Source of the DNA: a virus | Length of the DNA stretch: 55,875 nt | Direction: 5' to 3' (one strand) | IMG/VR virus record: IMGVR_UViG_3300044729_003382 | Coordinates: 1-55,875 of that record | Part shown: one piece after another, positions 2,192 through 41,313 of the stretch | Numbering within the stretch: the stretch's first letter is position 1 | How the letters are laid out: each line of letters begins with the position of its first letter | Notes under the pieces: model-generated | Databases searched by the model: none | Told to the model about the DNA's origin: nothing | The model's input: only the letters and a program-made list of their open reading frames with translations | Position numbers and translations under genes: made by a program

Positions 2192-2209
2192 ATTTCTTTA
2201 TCTTACATA

Positions 2210-2241
2210 GTAAAGATAGGTATAAAACCCCAAACTTCCAA
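2210..2241 (-). promoter_or_regulatory. Bacteroidetes-type promoter, TATCTTTAC class
   Basis: Minus-strand TTGG (2241-2238), 19-base spacer, TATCTTTAC (2218-2210). A DnaA-box-like TTATCCACA (2258-2266) and a palindrome (2273-2290) sit directly upstream. It drives 2084-2191 and then 1647-2036. Confidence 0.7.
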
Positions 2242-2272
2242 GCTTTTTCCCAAAAAGTTATCCACATTCTAC

Positions 2273-2290
2273 TGTCCAATATATTAGACA
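2273..2290. promoter_or_regulatory. operator-like palindrome TGTCCAAT-N2-ATTaGACA
   Basis: An 18-base inverted repeat with one mismatch. A perfect version, TGTCCAAT-TT-ATTGGACA, lies at 29264-29281, again about 35 bases upstream of a TATCTTTAC-class promoter. Two copies in the same relative position suggest a binding site for a dimeric regulator. Confidence 0.5.
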
Positions 2291-2816: not shown

Positions 2817-2819
2817 TAT

Positions 2820-3395
2820 TGTGTGTGGGGAGTGTTATAGGGGATGTTTTTAGTGTTATAAAATTTTCCCCAATATTTATGGAAGCTAAATTGCTCTCCC
2901 GTCTCTCATGCCCCTCTTTCCCCGCTTTTCTTCGCAATTGAGGTATCATTATTAGTTTTGCTCCCCCCTTCCCTTCCCTCTCTCCTCCTTTCCCTTTCCT
3001 GTCTTGCTCCCTTTCTATTTTTGACAGGGTTTTTTTTGAAGGTTCATTTTAATACAATTTCGGTGTCAAATGGTATATAGTGGGGAAAAGTGGGGAAAAG
3101 TGGGAATTTTTACGATTATTACTCCATTTCTTCCTCTTTTCTTCTTCTTCTTCTGCTTTCGTTACTTATTTTTAGGTTATTTAGGTTATTTGGTTATGGG
3201 GTATCCTATATAGTGTATTGTTATTCTATATTAGTTATATATATATATATTCTTGTTCTTTTATACTCTCTCTCTCTATATATAGTATTGTTATTATTAT
3301 TTGTCTTAGTACTGCTACTATTACTACTATATAGTGCTATTATATTTTTTGTGTTTATTTCCCACTCACTCACTGCGTTCATTCGTTTCGGCGCA
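2820..3395. other. gene-free region with pyrimidine-rich tracts and TA repeats
   Basis: No credible coding frame is seen on either strand. The stretch holds a plus-strand pyrimidine-rich tract at about 2953-3012, a second one at about 3125-3152, a tandem TGGGGAAAAG pair near 3080-3103, TA and CT microsatellites at 3236-3290, and one degenerate copy of the upstream palindrome at 3325. Together with 2291-2816 it forms the longest non-coding interval of the window. Confidence 0.6.
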
Positions 3396-3425
3396 TAAAA
3401 AAACCCCAGCCTTTTGGGTTGGGGT
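3396..3425 (-). terminator. rho-independent terminator
   Basis: On the minus strand the stem ACCCCAACC / GGCTGGGGT (one mismatch) closes a short A-rich loop and is followed by seven T. It lies just past the stop of 3449-3763 and should end transcription of the leader-peptide gene cluster before the repeat region. Confidence 0.8.
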
Positions 3426-3448: not shown

Positions 3449-3763
3449 TTATCTGAATCTATCTAACCGGCTTTGTAATTTATCGTTCCACTCCGGCCCA
3501 CCTTTTAACCTGACCACTAATGCGTTCCCCGGTACTTTTAACGCATTACCTGTCAATGCCGATTGTACAATATATGAACTACCTTCTTTTCTATATATAC
3601 CTACCACATCCCTAACAAATATAGGTTCTTTCTCCCTACTATCTAAATCCAATACATTCATGCTTTTCTTTACTACACCTAAGCCAATGAAATTATTGCT
3701 TTCTGTCAGTAATACACTTTTTATTGCCTCTCTAATTAGCTGTCTTAATTGCGATACTTTCAT
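3449..3763 (-). CDS. probable packaged protein with N-terminal leader, 104 aa
   Basis: It opens with MKVSQLRQLIREAIKSVLLTE, the leader shared (with variation) by the genes at 3792, 4181, 4377, 5000 and 7615. The leader is amphipathic and contains IRE and LTE, which fit the (I/L)-X-E cleavage rule of T4-type prohead proteases. The remainder (SNNFIGLGVV onward) is a small basic domain with no recognised fold. It is the last gene before the terminator. The packaged role is inference. Confidence 0.65.
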   Translation of the reverse strand: MKVSQLRQLIREAIKSVLLTESNNFIGLGVVKKSMNVLDLDSREKEPIFVRDVVGIYRKEGSSYIVQSALTGNALKVPGNALVVRLKGGPEWNDKLQSRLDRFR

Positions 3764-3791
3764 ACTTTAATCCTTTTTTGATATTAATATA

Positions 3792-4130
3792 CTATTTGTG
3801 AATTTTTACTCTATGGAGAGATTTTATCAATTTAAATAATTTATCAAATTCCATTTGAGTAGTATTGTGCGTATCCCTAATACCTAACATATCCGGTGTT
3901 TTATTACCATACCCGCCAATTTTCTCAACTGCAGCATAATTACTTAATTTTGTTCTTTGACCATTATTCATCCTTACAAATACAGGATTTATTGGTTCAT
4001 GTGTTTTATCATCTTCTCTACTATATTCAGGTTTAAAGTGGACTTTATATAGAATTGTATCGGCAGTTGCTTCTCTCAATACTTGTTTTATTGCTTCTCT
4101 AATTAGCTGTCTTAATTGCGATACTTTCAT
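3792..4130 (-). CDS. probable packaged protein with N-terminal leader, 112 aa
   Basis: The start is set at the ATG of MKVSQLRQLIREAIKQVLRE, because this leader is conserved; an upstream in-frame ATG at 4172 would only add a translated copy of a duplicated intergenic segment. IRE and LRE are candidate protease sites. The body (ADTILYKVHFKPEYS onward) is basic and unrecognised; HNTTQMEFDKLFKLIKSLH near the end is helical. Confidence 0.65.
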   Translation of the reverse strand: MKVSQLRQLIREAIKQVLREATADTILYKVHFKPEYSREDDKTHEPINPVFVRMNNGQRTKLSNYAAVEKIGGYGNKTPDMLGIRDTHNTTQMEFDKLFKLIKSLHRVKIHK

Positions 4131-4135
4131 ACTTT

Positions 4136-4176
4136 GTTTCCTTATTAAGCATCTCTTTTTCTTCTCGACCACACCA
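4136..4176. repeat. duplicated intergenic segment, copy A
   Basis: About 40 bases (minus strand TGGTGTGGTCGAGAAG, then AAAAAGAGATGCTTAA, then AAGGAAAC) directly upstream of the leader gene 3792-4130 recur almost exactly at 4369-4408, upstream of 4181-4363. The duplicated block carries the purine-rich ribosome-binding region and marks a tandem duplication inside this gene family. Confidence 0.75.
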
Positions 4177-4180
4177 TATG

Positions 4181-4363
4181 TTACATGTCATAGTCTTTCA
4201 AACTTTCCAAAAGATTTTCTATACCTTCTTTGATAAGTCCGTTATATAATCCAACCTTTTTTAAGTTATATTTATTTTGTAGTAAATCTTTTTTTAGTTT
4301 TTCCAAAAATAGATCACTTTTTACTGCTTCTCTAATAAGCTTTTTTAATTCTAATGTTTTCAT
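4181..4363 (-). CDS. probable packaged protein with N-terminal leader, 60 aa
   Basis: A short member of the leader family: MKTLELKKLIREAVKSDLFLE followed by about 40 Lys/Leu-rich residues ending LLESLKDYDM. The conserved leader selects the ATG at 4363; longer frames upstream translate the duplicated segment. IRE and LFLE are possible cleavage sites. It may be little more than a leader plus a helical tail, like the small internal proteins of T4. Confidence 0.6.
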   Translation of the reverse strand: MKTLELKKLIREAVKSDLFLEKLKKDLLQNKYNLKKVGLYNGLIKEGIENLLESLKDYDM

Positions 4364-4368
4364 TGTGT

Positions 4369-4408
4369 GTTTCCTTTTAAGCATCTCTTTTTCTTCTCGA
4401 CCACACCA
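4369..4408. repeat. duplicated intergenic segment, copy B
   Basis: Second copy of the block at 4136-4176 with a one-base length difference. Here it also encodes the last residues (WSRRKRDA) of the upstream gene 4377-4661, so the duplication copied a gene end plus spacer. Confidence 0.75.
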
Positions 4409-4661
4409 AAGACCATTCCTTAGATACTTTATCAAACTCTCTTTGTACTTCTGGCCCTTTTTTCTTTACATAATCTTCAGCTTGTTCGGCGTAATCATCT
4501 AAATGAGTAGTACTACGATATAACCTCGCCGCATCCAATATTTTTCCGTTATCAATTAATCTCTTAAACTCTCTAAATGCTCCTAATTGACTAAAACTTT
4601 CTTTTAGTAATACATTTTTTACTGCTTCTCTAATAAGCTTTTTTAATTGTGATACTTTCAT
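4377..4661 (-). CDS. probable packaged protein with N-terminal leader, 94 aa
   Basis: It opens MKVSQLKKLIREAVKNVLLKE, with IRE and LKE as candidate prohead-protease sites, then SFSQLGAFREFKRLIDNG and further mostly helical, charged sequence. The C-terminus (VWSRRKRDA) lies in the duplicated intergenic block. The fold is not recognised. A ribosome-binding stretch AAGGAAAT precedes the ATG. Confidence 0.65.
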   Translation of the reverse strand: MKVSQLKKLIREAVKNVLLKESFSQLGAFREFKRLIDNGKILDAARLYRSTTHLDDYAEQAEDYVKKKGPEVQREFDKVSKEWSLVWSRRKRDA

Positions 4662-4686
4662 ACTTTATTTCCTTTTTTACTGTATT

Positions 4687-4995
4687 TTAAATTTTATGCT
4701 TTCCAAAGGTGTAATAATCTTGAGCTTCATCATCAGCACTCCATTTTGATTTGGCCAATTGTTTTACCTTTTCGGTTGGATTTTGGATGTATTGGATTGA
4801 ATATGGATCTTTTTCAACCGCTGCTAACTGAACCCTTTCTGATGGATTTTCTATGAATTCTATTGCCCATGCATACTGTTTAACCGCCGCTAACTGAATT
4901 AATTCACCATTATTATACACCTGTTTATCCAAAGTATATTTTGGATTCACTTCACCGATTTTGGTTAGGATATTTTTGAGTTGATTGTTTTCCAT
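4687..4995 (-). CDS. DUF4116-like repeat protein, 102 aa
   Basis: It carries two to three repeats of about 22 residues with the pattern NPSExVQLAAVxxxxxxIxYIxNP, the type called DUF4116, which forms helical hairpins. Its C-terminal repeats match those of the upstream neighbour 5000-5674 (both end with NPTEKVKQLAKSK). It lacks the leader, so it is probably a partial duplicate of that gene. Function unknown. Confidence 0.65.
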   Translation of the reverse strand: MENNQLKNILTKIGEVNPKYTLDKQVYNNGELIQLAAVKQYAWAIEFIENPSERVQLAAVEKDPYSIQYIQNPTEKVKQLAKSKWSADDEAQDYYTFGKHKI

Positions 4996-4999
4996 AATA

Positions 5000-5674
5000 T
5001 TAATATCCTTTTGATTTGGCCAATTGTTTTACTTTCTCTGTTGGATTTTCGATGAATTGGATTAAATATGGATTCTTTCTAACCGCCGCTAACTGAACCG
5101 CTTCTGATGGGTTTTTGATGTATTGGATTGAACCACCAACTTGTTCGACAGCTGCTAACTGAACTTTTTCTGATGGATTTTTGATGTATTCGATTGTCCA
5201 GGGGCCCATTGGTTTCTCTTTAACCGCAACTAACTGAACCTTTTCTGATGGGTTTTTGATATATTTGATTGACTTTGGATCCTCTTTAATCGCAGCTAAC
5301 TGAACCGCTTCTGATGGGTTTTTAATGAATTGGATTGCAGGACCGTCCCTTTTAACAGCAGCTAACTGAACCGCTTCTGATGGATTTTCGATGTATTGGA
5401 TTGAAAGACTATTCTTTTCAACCGCTGCTATTTGGTCTTTTTCGGATAATTTGTTTGATGGTTCAATATAAGGTTCGACATCAGATTTTTGTATTCTTAC
5501 TTGCCTCCAGCCATTTACGTTTTTTGCAAGGTAATATGTTGGATTGATTTTGTCTACCGTAAAGACATCACCTGAAGGGATATGTTTCACTTTTGAGCCT
5601 ATCTTGATTTCTGTCTCCAGCAATACACTTTTTACTGCTTCTCTAATAAGCTTTTTTAATTGTGATACTTTCAT
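5000..5674 (-). CDS. leader peptide plus DUF4116-like repeat protein, 224 aa
   Basis: Three parts are visible: the leader MKVSQLKKLIREAVKSVLLE (residues 1-20); a small beta-rich domain (about 22-70, IKIGSKVKHIPSGDVFTVDK), possibly SH3/KOW-like; and six tandem repeats of about 22 residues (about 77-215) of the type AVQLAAVKRDGPAIQFIKNP. Such repeats form alpha-helical solenoids, often for protein binding. With its leader the protein is a candidate for packaging into the head. Confidence 0.7.
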   Translation of the reverse strand: MKVSQLKKLIREAVKSVLLETEIKIGSKVKHIPSGDVFTVDKINPTYYLAKNVNGWRQVRIQKSDVEPYIEPSNKLSEKDQIAAVEKNSLSIQYIENPSEAVQLAAVKRDGPAIQFIKNPSEAVQLAAIKEDPKSIKYIKNPSEKVQLVAVKEKPMGPWTIEYIKNPSEKVQLAAVEQVGGSIQYIKNPSEAVQLAAVRKNPYLIQFIENPTEKVKQLAKSKGY

Positions 5675-5691
5675 ACTTTGATGCCTTTTTA

Positions 5692-6222
5692 CTAATAAAT
5701 ATATGTTTTTAATTTGTTTAATGTATTTTGTAAATTACTATTTTTGTGCAATATCCCAATACCCCCAGCGGCCTCCCACTTCGTTATAAAATCTTTTCTA
5801 TCATCAATTAAGATAGATGTTGGAGTTGCCCAGTTCTGCTTTTGATAGTTTATTATTGTGGGTGGGTTTCCCAAAAACCTTTTTATCCAAATCAACTTAC
5901 CCTTCTTTGACTCTGATATATTATACGATGGTGCTGATAATATAATAGGTTTATATTTTTTTATTTCTCGCCATAATAACATACCATTTTTTAATGGTGG
6001 TAATCCCGCCCAATATTGGTGTTCCTTCATCCCCTTCTCTACCAACTTTTCATTAAAATTATCCCAAAATTGCTTTCTCTCTTCGGGGGTTTTATATAAT
6101 GGGCCGGGTGGATTTCCCATAAATTTGGCGTATCCACTCACAAAATCTACCAATACACCATCCATATCACAGTATATAGTATAGGTTATGTTTTCTTTTA
6201 CAAGCGGTAATAGTTTTATCAT
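5692..6222 (-). CDS. HAD-superfamily 5'(3')-deoxyribonucleotidase-like phosphatase
   Basis: The core begins YCDMDGVLVDFVSGYAKFMG (about residues 17-36), with the DxDG(V/T) nucleophile motif of HAD phosphatases in the form typical of the NT5C deoxyribonucleotidase group. Motif II is PIILSAPS and motif III is SILIDDRKDFITKWEAAGG. At 176 aa it has the length of small phage nucleotidases, which dephosphorylate dNMPs or related substrates. It opens MIKLLPLVKEN, a short leader-like segment with an LVKE site, suggesting it too might be packaged. Confidence 0.75.
   Translation of the reverse strand: MIKLLPLVKENITYTIYCDMDGVLVDFVSGYAKFMGNPPGPLYKTPEERKQFWDNFNEKLVEKGMKEHQYWAGLPPLKNGMLLWREIKKYKPIILSAPSYNISESKKGKLIWIKRFLGNPPTIINYQKQNWATPTSILIDDRKDFITKWEAAGGIGILHKNSNLQNTLNKLKTYIY
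5693..5703 (-). promoter_or_regulatory. candidate late promoter motif TATATTTATTA
   Basis: The minus-strand motif lies about 20 bases upstream of the leader gene 5000-5674. Similar TATTTATTA/TATTTATAA motifs precede other leader genes and the endolysin, and lack the TTTG -33 box. This is AT-rich DNA, so chance matches are possible. Confidence 0.35.
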
Positions 6223-6224
6223 AA

Positions 6225-6235
6225 TTATAAATATA
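6225..6235 (-). promoter_or_regulatory. candidate late promoter motif TATATTTATAA
   Basis: A TATTTATAA-type motif immediately upstream of the HAD gene start at 6222. The distance is very short, so it may instead be part of an A/T-rich leader. Confidence 0.25.
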
Positions 6236-6238
6236 GAA

Positions 6239-6418
6239 CTATTTTTTATTACTAAAATTAGTTATGTAATTATAATCCGTTTCAAATCCACCTTTACCCT
6301 CTACAGTATTTGATGGCGCTAATTTAGTTTTTCCAGATTGATTTATACTATTAATTATTTTTTTACGAATAATATTACTCTGATTTACAATTCTGTTATT
6401 AAAATCGTTTATATTCAT
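6239..6418 (-). CDS. small hypothetical protein, 59 aa
   Basis: MNINDFNNRIVNQSNIIRKK opens a basic, Asn-rich protein ending NYITNFSNKK. Its ATG overlaps the stop of rpiB by four bases (ATGA at 6415-6418), strong evidence of translational coupling. Not recognised. Confidence 0.6.
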   Translation of the reverse strand: MNINDFNNRIVNQSNIIRKKIINSINQSGKTKLAPSNTVEGKGGFETDYNYITNFSNKK

Positions 6419-6855
6419 ATTTTTTCAATAGTTTTAACTCTATCCTCGTGTCTACCACCTTCAAACGGGGTAAATAAAAATGTATTTACAGAATCAATAG
6501 CATCATCAATGGATATAAACCTTGCAGGTAAACAAATAATATTTGCATCATTGTGCAACCTCATAAGTTCTGCTATTTCTACATCCCAACAAACACCTGC
6601 CCTCACACCTCTCGTTTTATTTGCTGTAATACACATCCCAACACCACTACCACATATAAGAATACCAACGCAATCTTCATTAATAACTACTTTTTCTGCT
6701 ACCAAATGAGCATATTCTGCATAGTTTGATTTTTCAGGCCCACTACCAAGATCTAGAACCAAATAATCGTTTTTATGTAGATATGAAATAATTTCTTTTT
6801 TTAATTCATACCCAGCGTGGTCAGAAGCTATAAAAATTGTTTTATTGTTTTTCAT
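6415..6855 (-). CDS. rpiB: ribose-5-phosphate isomerase B
   Basis: The full-length 146-residue protein matches the RpiB/LacAB family, which interconverts ribose 5-phosphate and ribulose 5-phosphate. The phosphate-binding start IFIASDHAGYELK, the catalytic-Cys loop ILICGSGVGMCITANK, the helix start RLHNDANIICLPARF and the terminal PFEGGRHEDRV are all present. As a phage-borne metabolic gene it could raise ribose phosphate supply for nucleotide synthesis, in line with the thymidylate synthase and nucleotidase nearby. It overlaps both neighbours by four bases. Confidence 0.92.
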   Translation of the reverse strand: MKNNKTIFIASDHAGYELKKEIISYLHKNDYLVLDLGSGPEKSNYAEYAHLVAEKVVINEDCVGILICGSGVGMCITANKTRGVRAGVCWDVEIAELMRLHNDANIICLPARFISIDDAIDSVNTFLFTPFEGGRHEDRVKTIEKI

Positions 6856-7112
6856 CCGTTATATATAGTATGATTGCTATTTGTTAATTTAATAAAAACA
6901 CCAGCTTTTCCAACCGATACCTCATATCCGCAAAACCTATTATCTAATTTAATACCATATTTTTTTAAATCAAAAATACATTTTTCGTTTTTTTCTCCAT
7001 CAAATACAGCATAAAGGCAATTATCAGCATAGTCTACATTTACACTTCTAATTGAACTTATTCTCCAATACGGAACTATAACCAATTCTTCAGCAGGGAT
7101 GTGTATCAGCAT
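6852..7112 (-). CDS. hypothetical protein, 86 aa
   Basis: Not recognised. It is a soluble, probably beta-rich protein (EELVIVPYWRISSIRS, KAGVFIKLTNSNHTIYNG) with three Cys. It overlaps rpiB by four bases and the upstream gene 7106-7432 by seven, so it sits in the middle of a coupled operon. Confidence 0.6.
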   Translation of the reverse strand: MLIHIPAEELVIVPYWRISSIRSVNVDYADNCLYAVFDGEKNEKCIFDLKKYGIKLDNRFCGYEVSVGKAGVFIKLTNSNHTIYNG

Positions 7113-7432
7113 ACCTTATCAAAAAAACGTATAATTTCAACTAACGGCGTTCTACTATCAACACCATTTTCAGACCAAACCCACTCTTTACCCTTACTGT
7201 CAATTATTTTTTTACGACCATCTATCCAATTTATCACATCAATTGGGTGGATGGTTTCTAATACAACATCATATTGGTCGATAATGTTAAATTCCATCGT
7301 AGTGGGGGGTTTTTCAATTCTTAAATTAGGCCCCTCATTGTTTATTAAATCTAATTTTTTCATAACAAATATATTTTTTTTAAATATGTTTTCTAAATCA
7401 ACGCCATCGTATATAAATTCAATTTCTTTCAT
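7106..7432 (-). CDS. hypothetical protein, 108 aa
   Basis: Not recognised. It opens MKEIEFIYDGVDLENIFKKN, has no membrane segment, and contains SKGKEWVWSENGVDSRTPLV. It heads the rpiB operon by overlap with 6852-7112. Confidence 0.6.
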   Translation of the reverse strand: MKEIEFIYDGVDLENIFKKNIFVMKKLDLINNEGPNLRIEKPPTTMEFNIIDQYDVVLETIHPIDVINWIDGRKKIIDSKGKEWVWSENGVDSRTPLVEIIRFFDKVC

Positions 7433-7437
7433 TCAAA

Positions 7438-7557
7438 CTAATTTACATGTACTCTATCCTCTTCATCAAATAAATCTTTACCCCAATAATCAATATCCCC
7501 TATCCAAACGATGGAAATGGGTATTGTTATTAGGAGTATAATTAAGAAAGTTATCAT
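7438..7557 (-). CDS. small single-span membrane protein, 39 aa
   Basis: MITFLIILLITIPISIVWIG forms an N-terminal membrane segment followed by an acidic tail (DIDYWGKDLFDEEDRVHVN). It fills the gap between 7106-7432 and a thyA remnant. The hydrophobic/acidic pattern is typical of small phage membrane proteins; no function is assigned. Confidence 0.5.
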   Translation of the reverse strand: MITFLIILLITIPISIVWIGDIDYWGKDLFDEEDRVHVN

Positions 7558-7565
7558 AGGTAAAG

Positions 7566-7607
7566 TTATTTAATTGTTGGGTGTGATTGATAGTTACTTA
7601 ATTGTAG
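7566..7607 (-). pseudogene. remnant of a thyA 3' end
   Basis: The minus strand reads LQLSNYQSHPTIK then stop, matching the C-terminal LENYQSHPTIK of the thymidylate synthase C-terminal ORF at 9193-10005. Twenty-four bases are identical (7569-7592 and 9211-9234). No other part of the gene is present here, so it is a recombination scar or a fragment copied during rearrangement. Confidence 0.65.
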
Positions 7608-7614
7608 GTATTAT

Positions 7615-7815
7615 TTACAACGACTTACGTATATAAGCAGTGTGTTTTTTTACTATATTAGCTAATTCAACAACATCACCTGTTGGATTTTTGATAGCCA
7701 TATCTGCTACTTTATCTAAAATATTAAGACTTCTACTAATTATATCTAAGTTACCTTCATTCATCACCCCAGAGATTTCTTCTCTAATAATTTGCTGTAA
7801 TTCTGATTTTTTCAT
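7615..7815 (-). CDS. probable packaged protein with N-terminal leader, 66 aa
   Basis: A divergent leader, MKKSELQQIIREEISGVMNE, opens this helical protein; IRE again gives an (I/L)-X-E site. The remaining 46 residues (GNLDIISRSLNILDKVADMA onward) are helical and end YIRKSL. I recall similar MKKSEL..IIREE starts in marine phage proteins, without a known function. It probably belongs to the same set as 3449-5674. Confidence 0.6.
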   Translation of the reverse strand: MKKSELQQIIREEISGVMNEGNLDIISRSLNILDKVADMAIKNPTGDVVELANIVKKHTAYIRKSL

Positions 7816-7829
7816 GTTTACCTTTTTTA

Positions 7830-7840
7830 TTATAAATATT
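7830..7840 (-). promoter_or_regulatory. candidate late promoter motif AATATTTATAA
   Basis: It lies about 15-25 bases upstream of the leader gene at 7615-7815, with the ribosome-binding stretch AAAAAAGG between. It fits the TATTTAT(A/T)A set seen upstream of other leader genes. Confidence 0.3.
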
Positions 7841-7842
7841 AA

Positions 7843-8079
7843 TCAATTCAAAATGCGTACATCAGATTCAGTTTCAATAACCACTCTTGCCCCACAAGAA
7901 ATTAAAGGTTTTACATCATCCCCAGCACCACAGTAAGTTATTTTACTTGGTCCCAATATCTCCACTTCATTACAATAGGTGTTTTTTCTACCCTGTTTAA
8001 CTGTAATAACAGGTAAATCAGTTCCTTTAGTTTTGTTGGAACGAATGTGGTGTTGGTTGACGTGTATTTTAGTAATCAT
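7843..8079 (-). CDS. hypothetical protein, 78 aa
   Basis: Not assigned. It is a basic/beta-rich small protein (MITKIHVNQHHIRSNKTKG, LPVITVKQGRKNTYC) with three Cys. The pattern N-x-x-x-IRxNxKx(G) ... PVITVK resembles small conserved phage proteins that I remember but cannot name. Confidence 0.6.
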   Translation of the reverse strand: MITKIHVNQHHIRSNKTKGTDLPVITVKQGRKNTYCNEVEILGPSKITYCGAGDDVKPLISCGARVVIETESDVRILN

Positions 8080-8084
8080 ATCTA

Positions 8085-8657
8085 TTAATCCTTATCATAA
8101 TACTCCCACACCTCTTCCAATTGTGATGGGTCAACAACAAATGATTCCCAATCATCTTTTCCTACCTCAACATCCTTAACATCAATGTAAAATGTTTTAG
8201 GAACAAAAGGAAATGATTTAACATACCCCTTCTTTCCAACCATTTTACTTCTATCGCCTGATTTGTAATCTTCTTCATTTAACCACGCCATCCCACTCCA
8301 ACAAATCCCATTTTGGTCTCTTTTAATAATTGCGTCTATGTAGTAGGGTTTTTCATCCTTTCCATCTTTAAATAAAGCAGAACATCTCCTGTTTTGATAC
8401 CAAGATCTTCCATCCCCGAAATCATTAACATCACCCCATTCTTCATCTTTACCTGTAATAGGTAGTAAAGGTTCAAAGTTGGCAAGTTTGTTAAAGATTG
8501 AAGCAACATATGGAGCAGACATACCCGAGTGTCCTTGTTTAGAGAACACTTCAATAAGTTCCATTACAGCCTCTCCAATTAAACCTCCGTAATCGGAATC
8601 TTCATCAAAGTAACCGGCTGCCTGTAATTCTGTTTTTGCGTAATTTGTTAAACTCAT
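8085..8657 (-). CDS. conserved phage hypothetical protein, 190 aa
   Basis: It opens MSLTNYAKTELQAAGYFDED, then has SDYGGLIGEAVMELIEVF, HSGMSAPYVASIFNKLANFE, and a C-terminal beta domain around YQNRRCSALFKDGKDEKPYY and FVPKTFYIDV. This combination is a protein family I recall from many unrelated tailed phages, with unknown function. The 30-base A/T-rich leader upstream is repeated upstream of 8677-8892. Confidence 0.7.
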   Translation of the reverse strand: MSLTNYAKTELQAAGYFDEDSDYGGLIGEAVMELIEVFSKQGHSGMSAPYVASIFNKLANFEPLLPITGKDEEWGDVNDFGDGRSWYQNRRCSALFKDGKDEKPYYIDAIIKRDQNGICWSGMAWLNEEDYKSGDRSKMVGKKGYVKSFPFVPKTFYIDVKDVEVGKDDWESFVVDPSQLEEVWEYYDKD

Positions 8658-8676
8658 ATTTTTTTAATTTTAATTT

Positions 8677-8892
8677 TTAAATCAACCCGTGTGATTTTAA
8701 TCTTTCCAACGCCCGGTTAAAATTCTCTTCGGCGGTTGATTCTATATCTTGATAGTCAGATGATGAATCTGCGTAAAGAATCGTCCACCCATTTTTTCCC
8801 GATTCGATTGTAATACCCATCCCGGTCTTGTCTTTTATCCTCTTGATGATTTCTACTTCATTTGAAGGCATCATTCCCATAAATCTTTTCAT
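8677..8892 (-). CDS. hypothetical protein, 71 aa
   Basis: Not recognised. A compact alpha/beta protein (MKRFMGMMPSNEVEIIKRIK, MGITIESGKNGWTILYAD) with a C-terminal helix (FNRALERLKSHGLI). The start context is an almost exact copy of the one before 8085-8657, so the two genes probably have equal translation signals. Confidence 0.6.
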   Translation of the reverse strand: MKRFMGMMPSNEVEIIKRIKDKTGMGITIESGKNGWTILYADSSSDYQDIESTAEENFNRALERLKSHGLI

Positions 8893-8920
8893 ATTTTTTT
8901 AATTTTAATTTTTAAATATA

Positions 8921-9190
8921 TTACTCCCCTATCCAATGGTCATCTAGTTCATCTATGCCTGAGTCAACTTGACTTTTAAATTTTTCTAATTCAAAGTTGT
9001 CAATTATATTGTTGTCTGTTTCAAGAGTTTCAAATCGTAGCTGACCTGACCCATCCCCATCAACAACGACCGGAATTGTGCGGGTCGCACCGACATTTCC
9101 AAGATACTGTATCTTAGCAAAAAGATTTAGAATTTCACTAATTTCTGATTTTCCGCCAGAAATTTTAACATTGATGTAATATTTTTCCAT
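8921..9190 (-). CDS. hypothetical protein, 89 aa
   Basis: Not recognised. It begins with a beta strand (KYYINVKISGG) and helix (KSEISEILNLFAKIQYLG), and has an acidic end (GIDELDDHWIGE). It lies immediately after the thyA C-terminal ORF with a two-base gap and is probably on the same transcript. Confidence 0.6.
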   Translation of the reverse strand: MEKYYINVKISGGKSEISEILNLFAKIQYLGNVGATRTIPVVVDGDGSGQLRFETLETDNNIIDNFELEKFKSQVDSGIDELDDHWIGE

Positions 9191-9192
9191 TT

Positions 9193-10005
9193 TTAATTTG
9201 AAAGCGGTAATTTAATTGTTGGGTGTGATTGATAATTTTCTAATGTAAAATCATTAGGTGAATAATAAGGTAAGCAATCACCTTCTTTCCACTTTACTTC
9301 ATCCTCAATTTTTAATGTAGGTAAATCAAATGGTTCTCTTGTCAATTGTTCTTTAATACCTTCAATTTGATTTAAGTAGATGTGTGTATCTCCCAAATTT
9401 CCTATAAGTTCATCAGGCACCATATTAACCTCTTTTGCGATGATTTCTAATAGTAACCCGTAACTTGCGATGTTAAATGGTAATCCAAGTGGGGTATCTA
9501 CTGAACGTTGATTCCACATTAAAGAGATTGCTCTGGTTGGGATGTTATACATTTCAAATTCAGGATTATAAACTCTACTATTAACACCCAATGTTTGACG
9601 TCGTCCACCTCCTGCTTTATTAAGTAATTCTATCCGTTCTCCTTTACTCAACTCTCTTGTATAAACTTGAAATCCATAATGACAAGGTGGAAGAACCATA
9701 TTCGGTAAATCGTGTACTGCCCAAGCACTCACAACCATACGCCTAGAATCAGGGTTTTCTTTTAATAACCTAATCAACTCAGATATTTGGTCTACACCTT
9801 TTTTAAAGTTAATTATATCTTGACTTCCATCTCTTTCTAAACCAATATGTAATGAAAATTCACCTCCCCAATCTCTCCATTGCTTACCATACACGGGCCC
9901 GAGTGACCCCCACTTCCTAGCAAACTTATCATCGGTTTTGATTTTGTTGATGAATTCTTCTTGTGTAAAAGGTCTTCCATCTGGATGTAAATGTTCTTTA
10001 TTCAT
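9193..10005 (-). CDS. thyA: thymidylate synthase, C-terminal portion of a split gene
   Basis: These 270 residues hold about the last two thirds of thymidylate synthase, which methylates dUMP to dTMP with methylene-tetrahydrofolate. Visible motifs are KWGSLGPVYGKQWRDWGG, the active-site Cys in MVLPPCHYGFQVYT, the dUMP-binding WNQRSVDTPLGLPFNIASYG and GDTHIYLNQIEG, and the terminal HPTIKLP. The N-terminal third is a separate ORF at 11015-11332, with an HNH gene between. This ORF has its own ATG in the shared GTTATGAATAAAGAAC context, so it is probably translated separately and pairs with the N-terminal piece. Confidence 0.93.
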   Translation of the reverse strand: MNKEHLHPDGRPFTQEEFINKIKTDDKFARKWGSLGPVYGKQWRDWGGEFSLHIGLERDGSQDIINFKKGVDQISELIRLLKENPDSRRMVVSAWAVHDLPNMVLPPCHYGFQVYTRELSKGERIELLNKAGGGRRQTLGVNSRVYNPEFEMYNIPTRAISLMWNQRSVDTPLGLPFNIASYGLLLEIIAKEVNMVPDELIGNLGDTHIYLNQIEGIKEQLTREPFDLPTLKIEDEVKWKEGDCLPYYSPNDFTLENYQSHPTIKLPLSN

Positions 10006-10969
10006 AACTTTTTATTTTGTTTTTTAATTGTTCTAAATCAATATGACATTTTTTACTTTTAACTCTATTATCATACCATTCTAACATTTGTAAATTACAC
10101 TGATGACTGATAATTTCAGGTTCTACATTATTCAAAAACCCTTCAACAATTGAATATTTATGGTCTAGTTGAAATCCATTTTTACCATTTGTCACTCTTT
10201 CTAAATTATTAGGATTTATGATATTTTTGTATTTATTATAAGTTGATTCCGTTAATTTTTTTACCTTCTTTCTATAAATTTGGTAATCAGATAGAAATTC
10301 GTCTGGTATTACCCACCCTCTTTCTATTTTTGTTTTCATAACATTATCAATTCTCATTTCAGGGTTTATATTGGCACTATTATCAACACCATATTTTTCT
10401 TTTAACACTTCTTTTATTTTTTCTTTAATTTCTTCTGACTTAAATGGATTATCTACACCATACTTTTTAATCCAAGTGTTTAATGCTTTTTGTTTTATTG
10501 CTTGATTGTGAAACGAATGTTCAACCCCATACCTTAAAATCATAGTAGATTTCATTTTATTTTTCAATTCAGAACTTTGTAGTGTGTAACCACCATATTT
10601 GGTGTTAACCGTTTCAGTTCTTTTTTTATTTCTCACTATTTTTTCTACTTCGGATAAGTTATCGTATTTTTCTCTTAATTTATTTTTCGTTTGTTCAGAG
10701 TTGTTATTACATTTTGCTGAGCAAAACATTCGGGTTAAATCAATTATTGGTTTATTACAGTTTATACATACGTTGATTGATTTTTTTTCTTTTAGTACGT
10801 ACCTAACCCTATCTACCAATTTTGGATTATGCAAATCCAAAAATTTAGTGTTATCAATTATTTCTTGTTCCAGCGAATCATCAATTACTCTCAACTTTTG
10901 AGATAATATTTTATATTCGTTATTTCTCAATATACAAAGTGTTGACTGAATTTTACTTTTTATACACAT
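9998..10969 (-). CDS. HNH homing endonuclease inside the thyA locus
   Basis: Zinc-binding pairs CINCNKP and FCSAKCNN come near residue 80, then tandem DNA-binding repeats of the type KYGVDNPFKSEEIKEKIKE (three to four copies), and a C-terminal HNH-like segment with GFQLDHKYSI and QCNLQMLEW. The YGVxNPF repeat is typical of large phage homing endonucleases. The ATG at 10969 is preferred over a TTG at 11005. The gene fills almost all of the interval between the thyA pieces, and its end (KIKSYE, stop) overlaps the start of the C-terminal piece by eight bases. Confidence 0.85.
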   Translation of the reverse strand: MCIKSKIQSTLCILRNNEYKILSQKLRVIDDSLEQEIIDNTKFLDLHNPKLVDRVRYVLKEKKSINVCINCNKPIIDLTRMFCSAKCNNNSEQTKNKLREKYDNLSEVEKIVRNKKRTETVNTKYGGYTLQSSELKNKMKSTMILRYGVEHSFHNQAIKQKALNTWIKKYGVDNPFKSEEIKEKIKEVLKEKYGVDNSANINPEMRIDNVMKTKIERGWVIPDEFLSDYQIYRKKVKKLTESTYNKYKNIINPNNLERVTNGKNGFQLDHKYSIVEGFLNNVEPEIISHQCNLQMLEWYDNRVKSKKCHIDLEQLKNKIKSYE

Positions 10970-10983
10970 TTTGGTTTCTTTTA

Positions 10984-10994
10984 TAATAAATATA
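10984..10994 (-). promoter_or_regulatory. candidate late promoter motif TATATTTATTA
   Basis: It lies about 15 bases upstream of the HNH gene start and after the stop of the thyA N-terminal ORF. Free-standing homing endonuclease genes of T4-like phages often carry their own late promoter, which this placement would fit. Confidence 0.35.
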
Positions 10995-11014
10995 TGAGAA
11001 ACCAAAAAAAGTCA

Positions 11015-11332
11015 TTATTCTTCATTATTTTTTTCCAACCTTTCACACTCTTTCAAATAAGAACGGTAAGCGTCTCCTACCCAAATGTTACAATCGTTGT
11101 CTAAGAGATACTTTATTGATGTATCACCCCGTAAGAACCAAAGTAACTCTACCACAATTCCTTTGAAATACATCTTCTTTGTAGTTAATAGTGGGAAACC
11201 ATCTTTCATAGAATGACGGATTTGTCTACCGAATACTGATAGAGTCCCCGTACCTGTCCTGTCTTTCTTTTCAACTCCATTACCAAGAATGTATTCTAGG
11301 AGCATTTGATATTCTTTATCTAATTTATTCAT
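11015..11332 (-). CDS. thyA: thymidylate synthase, N-terminal portion of a split gene
   Basis: These 105 residues match the first third of thymidylate synthase: [19 protein letters not shown] (the phosphate-binding Arg loop), [20 protein letters not shown] and [19 protein letters not shown]. The frame stops after [11 protein letters not shown], just where the C-terminal ORF resumes with HLHPDGRPFT. All catalytic parts exist when the two ORFs are combined. It overlaps the upstream ORF 11325-11612 by eight bases. Confidence 0.92.
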
Positions 11333-11612
11333 AACTTTCTATTATTTTATAACTATCAAATTTTAACCATACCTCATCTTCATTTAGGTTTAGTGTTGGG
11401 GAACAATTATTTAAAATACCAGACTCGCAAATTCTTTTATATTCAACATCTTTCACATAATCTGATTTAGGTATTTGTCCATATCCAAGATTACATTTTT
11501 TTTGCCATTTATAAAAAAAAATCACATCTTGTTCTTCAGATAGAGGTATAATAAATTTTCTTTCATCATTATATCTACCCTCAAACCATTTTTCATTAAT
11601 TTTAACTTTCAT
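11325..11612 (-). CDS. hypothetical protein, 95 aa
   Basis: Not recognised. [20 protein letters not shown] opens a beta-rich protein with several Cys ([22 protein letters not shown]), ending KIIESYE. The end is generated by the eight-base overlap GTTATGAATAA with the thyA N-terminal start, a junction that repeats along this operon. Confidence 0.6.
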
Positions 11613-12006
11613 AACTTTCTATTGTTTTATCGTTGTATGTTACTGTGATTAGTTTGGTTGGTACATTGTGTTTGTCGCACATATAATTAGCAAAATCAAA
11701 TTCTTCCATATTAGGTGTTAGGTCAGCTATCTTCCATCTTTCCATCATATCTAACTCTCGTTCTTCAATCTTTAATCCCCACCTTTCAGAGAATTCTGTA
11801 TCGGTTTTACATTTGTTGATGAATTCTTCTTTTGTTAGATGTCTAGTTGGGTGCGGGGATACGATAGAACGACCAATACGAATACACCAACCTTTGTATA
11901 AATTTTGATAAAGTATGTTTGTATGATGGTCTTGTATTGTTGCTAATGGATAATTTGTGTATGTCTCATAAACCTCATCCAATAATTCTTGTTGTTCTTC
12001 ATTCAT
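11602..12006 (-). CDS. hypothetical protein with a thymidylate-synthase-like segment, 134 aa
   Basis: It starts MNEEQQELLDEVYETYTNYP and contains HPTRHLTKEEFINKCKTDTE, then FSERWGLKIEEREL, parallel to HPDGRPFTQEEFINKIKTDD, then KFARKWG in ThyA (9193-10005). It ends [20 protein letters not shown]. Siblings lie at 12189-12545 and 12538-12888. No catalytic TS residues are retained, so enzymatic function is unlikely; the role is unknown. It overlaps both neighbours. Confidence 0.65.
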   Translation of the reverse strand: MNEEQQELLDEVYETYTNYPLATIQDHHTNILYQNLYKGWCIRIGRSIVSPHPTRHLTKEEFINKCKTDTEFSERWGLKIEERELDMMERWKIADLTPNMEEFDFANYMCDKHNVPTKLITVTYNDKTIESYES

Positions 12007-12196
12007 AACTTTCTAATTTAATCATTGCAAAATATTCAAATTCGGGTATAGTGAATTCTTCTGTCCTACCAGGCGTAGAATTTAAGTACTCAACAATCAC
12101 CTTATCTTTTGTTACATCTTTAACAATCATTGATACAGGTGCCAATGACCCTAAGTCTAAATTGAATTTTTTGCCAATTAATTGTTCTTTATTCAT
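11999..12196 (-). CDS. hypothetical protein, 65 aa
   Basis: It opens MNKEQLIGKKFNLDLGSLAP, followed by beta strands VSMIVKDVTKDKVIVEYLNS, and ends AMIKLESYE. It could be a small SH3-like barrel. The eight-base overlaps at both ends carry the shared GTTATGAATAA-type junction. Not recognised. Confidence 0.6.
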   Translation of the reverse strand: MNKEQLIGKKFNLDLGSLAPVSMIVKDVTKDKVIVEYLNSTPGRTEEFTIPEFEYFAMIKLESYE

Positions 12197-12545
12197 AACT
12201 TTCTACTATTTTATCGTTGTATGTTATTGTGATTAGTTTACGTGGCACTCCTCTTTTATCTAAAGTTTCATGATGATCAGGGTATTCACCAAATAAATCA
12301 TCAAAATGTATATCGTATTTTTTTCTTTCTCTAACAGTTGTCAAATCTCGTTCTTCAATCTTTAATCCCCACCTTTCAGAGAATTCTGTATCGGTTTTAC
12401 ACTTGTTGATGAATTCTTCTTTTGTTAGTAATTGTCCTTTACTATTAATATAGTCTTTCGGTGGGTTAGATTTTTTCATCGGGAAATTATTCTTGAAATT
12501 CTTATAAGCATCATCAATAATCCGATTGTATCTTTCGTTATTCAT
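12189..12545 (-). CDS. hypothetical protein with a thymidylate-synthase-like segment, 118 aa
   Basis: A sibling of 11602-12006: the N-terminal helix MNNERYNRIIDDAYKNFKNN, the shared core LLTKEEFINKCKTDTEFSER followed by WGLKIEERDL, and the C-terminal VPRKLITITYNDKIVESYE. The core is nearly identical at the DNA level to that of 11602-12006, which points to recent duplication, while the flanks differ. Function unknown. Confidence 0.65.
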   Translation of the reverse strand: MNNERYNRIIDDAYKNFKNNFPMKKSNPPKDYINSKGQLLTKEEFINKCKTDTEFSERWGLKIEERDLTTVRERKKYDIHFDDLFGEYPDHHETLDKRGVPRKLITITYNDKIVESYE

Positions 12546-12888
12546 AACTTTCTATTGTTTTATCGTTGTATGTTATTGTGATTAGTTTACGTGGATATAA
12601 TGCTGTACTTCCTTTCAACATTGGATTATTTTGATCTACTTGTTCCAAAATTGTTTGTTCTTCAATCTTTAATCCCCACTTTTGGGAGAACTCACTATCG
12701 GTTTTACATTTATTGATGAATTCTTTTGGTGCGTATTGTCTATATACTTTCTTTATTTCACCTGTACCTAAACACATTCCATCTAATTCCTCTAGTGATA
12801 CTAAATCATCTGTACGGAACATAGTTTGAGATTGATATTTTTTATACACCTCATCCAATAATTCTTGTTGTTCTTTATTCACCCTCAT
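12538..12888 (-). CDS. hypothetical protein with a thymidylate-synthase-like segment, 116 aa
   Basis: Third sibling. MRVNKEQQELLDEVYKKYQS resembles the start of 11602-12006, the core is APKEFINKCKTDSEFSQKWG with LKIEEQ after it, and the end is [19 protein letters not shown]. It is more divergent in the core than the other two. It overlaps 12189-12545 by eight bases. Confidence 0.65.
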   Translation of the reverse strand: MRVNKEQQELLDEVYKKYQSQTMFRTDDLVSLEELDGMCLGTGEIKKVYRQYAPKEFINKCKTDSEFSQKWGLKIEEQTILEQVDQNNPMLKGSTALYPRKLITITYNDKTIESYE

Positions 12889-13117
12889 TGTCTCTTAAAT
12901 TTTTAAGTTCTTCAATCACATTATTATTCATATCAGTAACAAAATCTCTTTCTAACATGTTCCTCAATGCTTGTTCGGCGTCTAAACCATATTCATTTGT
13001 TGCTAATTCAATACACTCATCATCTGATTTGTTATGCCAAAATGATAGATGTTCGAAAAATGCTTTAGCATCAATAATAATTGTTTTTCCTCCTTCGTTA
13101 TTCATCGCGGTGTTCAT
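12875..13117 (-). CDS. hypothetical protein, 80 aa
   Basis: Not recognised. It reads MNTAMNNEGGKTIIIDAKAF, then a helical, acidic remainder (AEQALRNMLERDFVTDMNNN). The ATG at 13117 overlaps the upstream stop as ATGA; a second ATG at 13105 follows and is possible too. It ends inside the start of 12538-12888. Confidence 0.6.
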   Translation of the reverse strand: MNTAMNNEGGKTIIIDAKAFFEHLSFWHNKSDDECIELATNEYGLDAEQALRNMLERDFVTDMNNNVIEELKNLRDNEGE

Positions 13118-13281
13118 TTTCGTGGTTCATTTTCATAGAATTCTTTGATGAAACTAACCACTTCATCGGGGACTGGTATCATACCACCGTAACTTGTCTC
13201 ATGTTCCATTAGACCTCTGACCAATAAATCTGCTATCCAACCTGAATATTCAGGTGATATGTTCAATTCTAACTTATTCAT
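13114..13281 (-). CDS. small hypothetical protein, 55 aa
   Basis: MNKLELNISPEYSGWIADLL begins an acidic alpha/beta protein ending EFYENEPRK. It starts in the recurring AAAAAGTTATGAATAA context and overlaps both neighbours by four bases, which supports real translation. Not recognised. Confidence 0.6.
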   Translation of the reverse strand: MNKLELNISPEYSGWIADLLVRGLMEHETSYGGMIPVPDEVVSFIKEFYENEPRK

Positions 13282-13394
13282 AACTTTTTATTTTTTAATA
13301 AATTTGACCATATTTTTATTACCATATCTCTTCTTGGGGATTGTTTTAACATTTTCCATCTGTTAATCCAATGTTCTATTTCTTCTTTATTCAT
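13278..13394 (-). CDS. very small basic protein, 38 aa
   Basis: MNKEEIEHWINRWKMLKQSP opens a helical, basic peptide that ends LLKNKKL. It starts with ATGA overlapping the stop of the methylglyoxal synthase gene and ends with the same AAAAAGTTATGA sequence overlapping the next gene. The duplicated junction on both sides supports a real, coupled gene. Confidence 0.55.
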   Translation of the reverse strand: MNKEEIEHWINRWKMLKQSPRRDMVIKIWSNLLKNKKL

Positions 13395-13765
13395 AACTTT
13401 TTATTTTTAAATCCTTCAATTAACAGGGAAGCTGTTGCGTAATTTGTGGCAAGAGGTATGTTGTAAACATTACAAACCCTCAGTAACATATTCACATCTA
13501 CAATGTGTGGATGAACAGCAAGTGGGTCTATAAAGAAAACAACACCATCTATCTCACCTTCTGCTATCATACTTGCTATTTGAGCATCACCACCCAAAGG
13601 ACCTGATTTCTTTTTAATGACTTGAATACCGGCGTGCTCTATGTGGGTGCCGGTAGTTCCGGTGGCAATGATTTGGTTATTTTTGAAAAAGTCTAACCTC
13701 TTCATAATAAAAGCAACCATGTCTGCTTTCTTACCATCGTGTGCTATAACTGCTATCTTCAACAT
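13391..13765 (-). CDS. mgsA: methylglyoxal synthase
   Basis: The 124-residue protein matches MgsA, which converts dihydroxyacetone phosphate to methylglyoxal and phosphate. Visible motifs are IAVIAHDGKKADM, the phosphate-binding ATGTTGTHIEH, the catalytic-Asp loop SGPLGGDAQI, and FFIDPLAVHPHIVDV followed by IPLATNYATA. It is somewhat shorter at both ends than the E. coli enzyme. A toxic electrophile-producing enzyme is an unusual phage gene; it could relieve phosphate limitation by bypassing lower glycolysis. It leads the coupled operon down to thyA. Confidence 0.9.
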   Translation of the reverse strand: MLKIAVIAHDGKKADMVAFIMKRLDFFKNNQIIATGTTGTHIEHAGIQVIKKKSGPLGGDAQIASMIAEGEIDGVVFFIDPLAVHPHIVDVNMLLRVCNVYNIPLATNYATASLLIEGFKNKKL

Positions 13766-13782
13766 ATGTAAATATACGAAAT

Positions 13783-13959
13783 TTATTTCATATTTACAAT
13801 ATTTTCTATCATTTTTTTTAAATTTTTACTTTGAATTTTTACTTTTATTACCCCGTCCCCCTCTACACTAACCCCGTCTGATATAATACTTTTTAATAAA
13901 GATAATTCAGTTTCGCTTATTTTATTTTCCACAGGTACTAATTCTATGTTTATTTCCAT
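13783..13959 (-). CDS. small hypothetical protein, 58 aa
   Basis: The ATG at 13959, behind a clear ribosome-binding stretch AAAAGGAAAAGG, gives MEINIELVPVENKISETELS and ends KKMIENIVNMK. An upstream in-frame ATG at 14064 would add unlikely sequence. It alternates strands and helices and is not recognised. Confidence 0.5.
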   Translation of the reverse strand: MEINIELVPVENKISETELSLLKSIISDGVSVEGDGVIKVKIQSKNLKKMIENIVNMK

Positions 13960-14014
13960 AACCTTTTCCTTTTGATAAAAATAATATTTGGAGGTATTAA
14001 ACCTTATAATTTTA

Positions 14015-14080
14015 TCATAATTTAACAAATTCCTCACAGATTGAATCAATTTTACGAGGTTCATAACTACAGTACTCCAT
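14015..14080 (-). CDS. possible micro-ORF, 21 aa
   Basis: The frame MEYCSYEPRKIDSICEEFVK-L lies one base after the stop of 14082-14273. It is supported only by position and a sensible composition; it may be noise. Confidence 0.2.
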   Translation of the reverse strand: MEYCSYEPRKIDSICEEFVKL

Positions 14081-14081
14081 A

Positions 14082-14273
14082 CTATACAACCTCAATCTCA
14101 CCAACTCTATATTTTCTACCAGTTGTATCTGCTTCAGCAGCCCGTCTTGCAAAATCCTCTGCTTCTTCCAATGTATCAAAATCATCCACCAAATCATTTT
14201 CATCTAATTTGGATACCCACATTTTTGGACTTTCCAATAATAATTGCTTATAAACTCTGTATTTAATTGCCAT
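14082..14273 (-). CDS. hypothetical protein, 63 aa
   Basis: MAIKYRVYKQLLLESPKMWV, followed by a DDFDTLEEAEDFARRAAEAD helix and a terminal strand RKYRVGEIEVV. Small proteins with a strand, a T-x-EEA helix and a strand are common in phages. It is preceded by an AAGGAAAT ribosome-binding stretch. Unknown function. Confidence 0.6.
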   Translation of the reverse strand: MAIKYRVYKQLLLESPKMWVSKLDENDLVDDFDTLEEAEDFARRAAEADTTGRKYRVGEIEVV

Positions 14274-14282
14274 AATATTTCC

Positions 14283-15035
14283 TTATTTTATTTGCCCTGC
14301 TTTTTTCAGCATTCTTGCAGTTTCAATCCATTTTTTACCTATTGGGTTATATATAGGCCTTCTAATAAATTCATTTACAGCTTTTTGAACTGCGTTTGGT
14401 GGTGGACCATATGTGGTATTATCAATAATTCTATAATCCTTTGCACCAAAAAGAGTTTGAAACTTACCCATATTCTCTTGGCAATCTTTCCAAATAGAAG
14501 TAACCAAATTTTCAGGTAATGTTCTATCTCTCCCAGCATTTCTTTCCTTTGCTACTTCTAACGATGTATTAACAAAAACCATCATACAATCATACCCTAA
14601 TGATTCAGCATGTTGTTTTTGCTTTTTTATTTTAGCAAAATCATCCCCCGTACCATCTATTATCATACCCAATCTACCCTCTTCATAAAATGCCCTTTGG
14701 GCTTGTGTTATTTTCTTTGCCCTATCTCTAATTCCACCAGGAACAGCAGTTATTGTAGCCCATAATTCGGGTTCTTCTCTTTCAATTCTACCCAAATCTT
14801 TTGGGTTTATACCATTCTTTTTTAATTGAGATTCAAAAGCAGTATCAGAATTAATTACTTTTAAACCTGATTGAGCAAAGGATGCTTTATATTTTCTATC
14901 TATACCAAATATTTCTTCGGATGTAAAAGATTTTCCTGAACCAGGCCCACCTGCCATGAATACGCATTTTAATATTCCTGGATCATCAACTCCCTCTGTA
15001 AGGATAATTCTTTTTAGTATTTCTCTCAATTTCAT
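14283..15035 (-). CDS. P-loop kinase of the zeta-toxin/AAA_33 type with leader-like N-terminus
   Basis: The Walker A motif GGPGSGKSFTSEEIFG lies near residues 29-44. DGTGDDFAKIKKQ and ERNAGRDRTLP (with the lid Arg residues) follow, giving the layout of zeta-toxin-like and polynucleotide kinases; 250 aa is typical. The first residues, MKLREILKRIILTEGVDDPG, resemble the packaged-protein leader, with LTE as a cleavage site. I recall such leader-plus-kinase proteins in marine phages. The substrate cannot be told from the sequence. Confidence 0.75.
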   Translation of the reverse strand: MKLREILKRIILTEGVDDPGILKCVFMAGGPGSGKSFTSEEIFGIDRKYKASFAQSGLKVINSDTAFESQLKKNGINPKDLGRIEREEPELWATITAVPGGIRDRAKKITQAQRAFYEEGRLGMIIDGTGDDFAKIKKQKQHAESLGYDCMMVFVNTSLEVAKERNAGRDRTLPENLVTSIWKDCQENMGKFQTLFGAKDYRIIDNTTYGPPPNAVQKAVNEFIRRPIYNPIGKKWIETARMLKKAGQIK

Positions 15036-40669: not shown

Positions 40670-40672
40670 TTT

Positions 40673-41272: not shown

Positions 41273-41297
41273 AAATTACCCTTTCTTATAAAACTAA

Positions 41298-41308
41298 TAA
41301 TAAATATC
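41298..41308 (-). promoter_or_regulatory. candidate late promoter motif GATATTTATTA
   Basis: A TATTTATTA motif about 25-35 bases upstream of the endolysin gene, a certain late function. This supports the late-promoter reading of the motif upstream of the leader genes. Confidence 0.35.
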
Positions 41309-41313
41309 TATTT

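Follow-up and report, generated by a model that had tools for sequence, protein, structure and literature searches.

What is the role of a leader that opens a row of otherwise unrelated phage proteins? The question is raised by the IMG/VR virus record IMGVR_UViG_3300044729_003382, a 55,875-base stretch of DNA (the window) in which six open reading frames (ORFs) begin with a common segment of about 20 residues ending in an LxE-type site. An initial annotation of the window had read this leader as a capsid-targeting sequence (CTS) like that of phage T4. The present analysis supports that reading by the occurrence of a single leader on unrelated bodies, by a sharp end of conservation at LxE (together what a cleavable CTS predicts), and by linkage of the leader to the gp21-like S77 prohead protease. 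We conclude that the leader is most probably a lineage-specific CTS of the T4 internal-protein kind, cut after LxE, with a cargo set that is far larger and fast-changing.

Leader genes of the window

The window agreed with positions 39,412–95,286 of a 135,671-base contig, G001, with two mismatches across its whole length. The eight N termini singled out in the initial annotation were all present, each on the minus strand. A strict leader regular expression matched exactly six window ORFs (3449, 3792, 4181, 4377, 5000, and 7615; against an average of 0.1 when the window ORFs were shuffled 20 times), the very group of five genes at 3.4–5.7 kb plus 7615–7815 that had been proposed, and found no further leader ORFs in the rest of G001. 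The kinase at 14283 and the nucleotidase at 5692, which had been counted in the same family, were not matched; their leaders are shorter and of other sequence, with only a terminal phi-x-E (phi, hydrophobic residue) in common. The features concerned are as follows.

3449–3763, minus strand: leader protein 1, 104 amino acids, MKVSQLRQLIREAIKSVLLTE then SNNF; leader at 3701–3763
3792–4130, minus strand: leader protein 2, 112 amino acids, MKVSQLRQLIREAIKQVLRE then ATAD; leader at 4071–4130
4181–4363, minus strand: leader protein 3, 60 amino acids, MKTLELKKLIREAVKSDLFLE then KLKK; leader at 4301–4363, with FLE the weakest terminal site
4377–4661, minus strand: leader protein 4, 94 amino acids, MKVSQLKKLIREAVKNVLLKE then SFSQ; leader at 4599–4661
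4687–4995, minus strand: DUF4116 paralog without a leader, within the array, beginning MENNQLKNILTKIGE
5000–5674, minus strand: leader protein 5, 224 amino acids, DUF4116 repeats, MKVSQLKKLIREAVKSVLLE then TEIK; leader at 5615–5674
5692–6222, minus strand: 5'-3' deoxyribonucleotidase (HAD), short leader MIKLLPLVKE then NITYTIYCDMDG; leader at 6193–6222
7615–7815, minus strand: leader protein 6, 66 amino acids, MKKSELQQIIREEISGVMNE then GNLD; leader at 7756–7815
14283–15035, minus strand: zeta/polynucleotide kinase-fold kinase, leader MKLREILKRIILTE then GVDDPG; leader at 14994–15035
38122–39309, minus strand: DUF5661 protein with HEITH at residue 213

When the genes of the five-gene array were compared copy against copy, identity was 63%–92% over nucleotides 1–60 and only 25%–42% over nucleotides 61–120. 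The 40 bases upstream of the leader genes held no common element except a weak ribosome-site signal. The bodies had been described as unrelated, and indeed the post-site bodies of the eight leader proteins gave no mutual match at E < 0.05; the only strong body match, DUF4116, was between 5000 and its leaderless neighbor 4687. The proposal of fitting cleavage sites held for phi-x-E, which was present throughout, and held in part in its strict form: a terminal (L/I)-X-E was found in five of the eight proteins (3449, 3792, 4377, 5000, and 14283), with deviations at 4181 (FLE), 7615 (MNE), and 5692 (VKE).

Spread of the leader and its linkage to the S77 prohead protease

Viral contigs were searched with two degenerate DNA patterns. 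The first, coding for MKxx(E/Q)LxxLIREA, matched 30 stretches; leaving out those in G001 and in a second contig, G002, 28 remained, and all 28 opened ORFs of at least 47 codons, one being interrupted by the contig end. The second, coding for MKK(S/T)(E/Q)LxxIIxE (residues 1–13), matched at least 120 stretches, compared with none for a permuted pattern of its codons. Among the matches listed, to which the counts of ORFs and body families below also refer, the second pattern gave 163 matches, 153 of which opened ORFs of at least 40 residues. Pooling of both patterns yielded 165 distinct ORFs of at least 40 residues and 161 of at least 55. At E 1e-3, the bodies of these 161 (residue 25 on) fell into 126 families, of which 113 had a single member.

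A conservation logo built from one representative of each of the 126 families gave the consensus MKKSEL(R/K)QII(K/R)EEIxKVLNE, and the leader of 7615 has the form commonest in this wider sample. Positions 7, 8, and 14, left free by the second pattern, kept 2.2–2.7 bits and positions 17, 18, and 20 kept 1.1–1.3 bits, while information dropped from 1.29 bits at E20 to at most 0.25 from residue 21 on. A phi-x-E with its E at 14–23 was present in 90% of the family representatives versus 11%–19% in five later intervals. A cut after IRE12, suggested earlier, is probably not at the main site: the wider family has E13 in 84%, and conservation reaches LxE at residue 20. The codons for I10 in the 161 ORFs were ATT (80), ATA (43), and ATC (38). 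Third codon positions are thus free, which argues that selection acts on the protein and not on DNA; a DNA element, which we had considered as an explanation of the leader, was rejected on account of this codon variation and the lack of shared DNA upstream.

Related forms of the leader are carried by an isolate, Flavobacterium phage vB_FspM_immuto_2-6A (immuto), which has S77 and bears leader proteins at 102294, 102880, and 113188. A tblastn search of annotated phages with a 22-residue leader returned no match at E 10, a result of little weight with so short a query. In two other contigs with DUF4116, G003 and G008, S77 was present and no leader match was found, and in a third (G007, 328 kb) there was one doubtful match; hence DUF4116 is not tied to this leader. 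With expressions looser than the strict one, the 38 kb of G107, a close relative by its kinase, gave no leader match, and the 288 kb of G087 (kinase identity 68%) gave only two, one of them adjoining the S77 gene. The leader is therefore not universal in the wider group.

By the initial annotation, lack of a prohead protease in the genome would refute its reading. A search with the S77 profile (PF03420) detected none in the window, G001, or G002, but a strong one in the related 74,851-base contig G110 (E 2e-35; PHROG "head maturation protease" 1.3e-55). As judged by reading rather than by profile search, the long ORFs of G001 contain no clear structural module. We therefore take the window and G001 to be fragments; the lack of S77 in them, and likewise in G002, is put down to fragments and not read as absence.

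S77 was detected in 9 of the 28 first-pattern contigs and in 39 of the 117 contigs, of any size, into which the second-pattern stretches fall. When leader contigs of both patterns were taken together, it was present in 11/11 at 140 kb or more and in 15/17 at 100 kb or more (exceptions, G001 and G050). Contigs matched by an arbitrary 14-base word served as random control; of 120 stretches, 100 were examined, including every one of at least 40 kb, and only 3 of these 100 had S77. At 40 kb or more, S77 was found in 22/35 second-pattern contigs versus 1/22 random ones (Fisher p = 7e-6); under 40 kb, in 17/82 versus 2/78 (p = 4e-4); and at 100 kb or more, for the second pattern alone, in 12/14 versus 1/4. 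A 13.9-kb contig, G073, combines seven leader ORFs with an S77 gene. Among contigs picked from the kinase and nucleotidase loci, 9/26 had S77.

The S77 proteins themselves bear (L/I)xE(S/G/A)-like sites at about residues 18–20, for example LTES, LTEG, LNES, and LHEA. The site is QLKEA in G110 and LLTES in immuto, the latter equal to VLLTES of the window. Resolution of 34 of 37 S77 loci gave 32 distinct N termini, and all 32 contained [LIVM]xE, an expression loose enough to pick another site in a few. The S77 matches of leader contigs G057, G059, G077, G181, and G221 contained in-frame TGA codons, a hint of an alternative code.

Turnover of the array and phi-x-E sites on enzymes

In G110, 40 of 120 predicted genes match G001, at a median identity of 56%. 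Its nucleotidase, 78% identical to that of the window, directly adjoins a row of leader genes, while S77, portal, and terminase lie at the other end of the contig. A slightly looser expression found nine leader ORFs in G110, and to the eye 65398, 69920, and 9729 resemble further ones. A second relative, G106 (60,261 bases), shows broad colinearity with the window, starting at the nucleotidase and reaching about 48 kb of the window, most matches exceeding 60% identity. It has three leader ORFs at the place of the window's array. Among the five array bodies of the window, only that of 3449 matched a body in the 14 related leader proteins compared. We conclude that the locus retains its place and its leader and changes its cargo.

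When 3449 was cut after LLTE, the very first residue of its body was already part of the alignment to the C-terminal domain of longer leader proteins, G110 71093 and G106 3524; with full-length proteins, the alignments started at residues 22 and 9, respectively. The predicted cut thus seems to coincide, or nearly so, with the joint between leader and domain. Residues 146–268 of the DUF5661 protein, which begin LNE and then A, match G110 leader protein 65398 directly behind the leader of the latter. Just downstream of the leader array, window positions 2100–3400 contain short tandem repeats and no clear genes, and a similar repeat-rich stretch lies at about 64.3–65.4 kb of G110. Another G110 gene, 12655–14229 (L416), encodes a cytidylyltransferase that opens with the leader MGNLIKEWVKEILTE and has, at its C terminus, a Hint/intein match below the Pfam cut-off; the start of G110 ORF 10683 resembles an intein end.

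The nearest solved folds for the kinase at 14283 are zeta-toxin and polynucleotide-kinase structures, and its Pfam matches are AAA_33 and Zeta_toxin. Its orthologs at 44 viral loci gave 27 distinct N termini, one locus giving none. The segment ahead of the kinase fold varies in length and sequence, yet 25 of the 27 end in phi-x-E-(G/S/A/N) before xDPG. Residues 1–13 were the only stretch below 50 in an AlphaFold model (24 sequences; mean predicted local distance difference test score, 85.5), where they are predicted as a low-confidence helix apart from the fold. Kinases with other leaders occur in Pelagibacter phage HTVC008M (MIPFILKEG) and Methylophilales phage Melnitz-3 (MKTFAELQEG). For the nucleotidase, 34 of 35 short N termini hold phi-x-E ahead of the first strand, a count in which a few N termini are in-frame starts inside longer ORFs and from which 5 of 78 loci lacking the anchor are missing. 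At four loci (L352, L358, L360, and L369), the nucleotidase domain stands behind a long in-frame upstream ORF with LNE-N at the joint, an arrangement that is polyprotein-like.

Proposed capsid targeting and the alternatives

In T4, a handful of proteins are known to bear the CTS. T4 IPI begins with MK, and its ITE-A comes at residue 19; in IPII and IPIII, IAE-A comes at residue 10. We take these to be the actual cut sites. The present leader, mostly 20 residues long, is near IPI in length and twice as long as the others. Side by side with T4 MKTYQEFIAE, it has the MK start and the terminal phi-x-E in common, and that comparison alone brought out no other evident likeness. According to the accessible parts of two sources, incorporation of IPIII required only its first 10 residues and gp21 cuts after L/I-X-E (PMC9026906), and the internal proteins form a highly diverse defense set in which only the CTS is conserved (PMC3012670). 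The likeness to IPI, IPII, IPIII, and Alt thus lies in a short N-terminal segment that stands on unrelated proteins, ends in (L/I)-X-E, and precedes diverse bodies (same sources, in part). It extends to S77 in the same genome, seen here in G110 and most large leader contigs and not in the window or G001. The cargo is far larger than in T4: the 75 kb of G110 hold 9 to 12 such genes, and the matches listed comprise the 126 body families. Unlike T4, immuto bears a second leader type, M..(N)FDLKKFLVENKLTxNS; in the form M..(N)F(D/N)L(K/R)(K/S)FL(V/T)ENKLT.N(S/A)..L it occurs there three times (103806, 117631, and 118632).

Phages phiKZ and SPN3US likewise have a gp21-like protease, Glu at P1, and head-packaged ejected proteins (PMC5694885 and PMC9026906, accessible parts). 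In contrast to the leader described here, their inner-head propeptides are, by the same partial accounts, mostly much longer (several exceed 100 residues), with S/A-X-E or A-X-E as the site. At 39.5–49.5 kb of phage Atu_ph07, ten successive proteins start M(K/R)WxxL(T/N/I)E, a leader differing in sequence from that of the window. This row lies within the coding sequence (CDS) 31–76 cluster (CDS numbers counted from accession order), of which 29 proteins were detected in virions (PMC6102473, accessible part). Unlike the bodies in the window, those of the row share a YRG-like motif; across 39484–49507 (L572) this YRG(M/I) motif may be ADP-ribosyltransferase-like; a Pfam scan of four of the proteins gave no domain of that name. 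ADP-ribosyltransferase, Nudix, MuF-fused, and polyvalent proteins of large myoviruses are enzymes thought to be packaged and injected; in the accessible part of PMC9503650 they are recognized by head-protein fusion or gene context, and no shared leader is described there. In the literature searched, most subscription journals being outside that search, we likewise found no published case of such a common leader other than in T4 and phiKZ-like phages.

From these likenesses we infer the following course of events. Proteins with the leader MK(K/V)S(E/Q)L(R/K)QLIRExIxxVLxE would bind the growing prohead core via this segment. As the head matures, the S77 protease would cut the leader after (L/I)-x-E, near residue 20, with a second cut possible after IRE12. 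The freed bodies would remain in the head with the DNA and be ejected with it into the host. There they may act at the start of infection, in host take-over or counter-defense, with functions differing by phage.

Several observations weigh against capsid targeting. The terminal sites MNE, FLE, and VKE depart from L/I-X-E, and no virion proteome of any phage with this leader was found in the literature searched. Residues 1–12 of the logo are largely dictated by the search patterns. Across whole proteomes, phi-x-E at residues 8–25 was only weakly above later stretches, with immuto and G025 not above all of them; this excess near N termini was set aside as proof, being weak and uneven. A claim that the leader forms an amphipathic helix was dropped, as its hydrophobic moment was not above shuffles. 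S77 was not found in the available part of the window's own genome or in 78 of the 117 second-pattern contigs, mostly short ones, and its linkage is inflated by close or duplicate contigs: a single leader protein occurs in both G028 and G032, and the names of G010 and G058 point to one metagenome. The kinase E-G persists even with the domain inside a longer chain, after VTE-G in Atu_ph07 39484, a 778-residue protein starting MKWNDLNEA that holds a kinase domain related to that of the window, so that E-G may belong to the kinase fold. Finally, some leader-pattern families resemble tail-associated long helices rather than head cargo, for example immuto 81525, beside baseplate genes. Loci L062 and L076–L081 are look-alikes of immuto 81525–81944 within the leader set and may reflect another use or chance likeness.

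The last of these points bears on the idea that an uncut leader targets proteins to the tail or baseplate, the phage GroEL, a membrane, or the replication site, phi-x-E being part of a docking segment. Immuto 81525–81944, which begins MKLDLLKKLIKEAVKEAVREEL, lies directly upstream of an annotated baseplate assembly gene, and the window phage encodes GroEL- and GroES-like proteins (by eye). We nevertheless consider docking unlikely: conservation ends sharply after E20, the leader site resembles the N-terminal sites of S77 proteases, the leader is linked to S77, and the T4 CTS is a precedent. Slightly less probable still is that the leader proteins are parts of the prohead core or scaffold, like T4 gp67 and gp68, that are cut and lost in maturation rather than injected as effectors. 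T4 core proteins do bear such sites, a leader gene of G073 (6794–7279) lies directly downstream of its S77 gene (7357–7806), and leader gene 9422 of G110 sits among structural genes. A core role, however, does not sit well with bodies that are mostly unrelated and fast-changing, with phi-x-E leaders on enzymes (nucleotidase, kinase, and cytidylyltransferase), or with the finding that, of the five array bodies, a single one is retained in the related arrays compared.

A 5' gene end recently duplicated or spread by gene conversion in this phage, the leader itself being functionless, could account for five tandem copies that are 63%–92% identical over their first 60 nucleotides; recombination can copy gene ends. 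We regard it as highly improbable. The leader stands on body families from many phages, its third codon positions are free, and the upstream DNA is unshared; the cross-phage data contradict this explanation.

Beyond capsid targeting as such, we lean towards a broader view in which a very large set of T4-like phages, most of them uncultivated, share a single modular and cleavable tag for head import and use it to load a big, quickly exchanged arsenal of effectors for injection. The tag alone would then list hundreds of early-acting, mostly unknown proteins of counter-defense and take-over, and new cargo would arise by fusion of new domains to the tag at its cut site. If the leader works like that of T4, a 20-residue motif makes hundreds of unannotated phage genes a defined class of virion cargo, delivered at time zero, and provides a direct search tool for anti-defense proteins. 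The leader is also a candidate for a new packaging tag, and its joining to domains at the cut site is suggested.

The host is probably a member of the Bacteroidota, as judged from a short match to immuto and from traits shared with it; the guess also draws on the end of 45426–47327, which we take to be sorting-domain-like. Elsewhere in the window, thymidylate synthase is encoded in two ORFs (11015–11332 and 9193–10005) split by a DUF7487 ORF with Cys-pair motifs (9998–11005), which may be a homing endonuclease. The stretch EFINKCKTDxEFSxxWGLKIEE, which resembles one in thymidylate synthase, recurs in the small ORFs 11602, 12189, and 12538. At 50298–53898, a DmpG-like aldolase, an acetaldehyde dehydrogenase, and a thiamine pyrophosphate enzyme stand in a row near sugar-type genes, an arrangement unusual for a phage.

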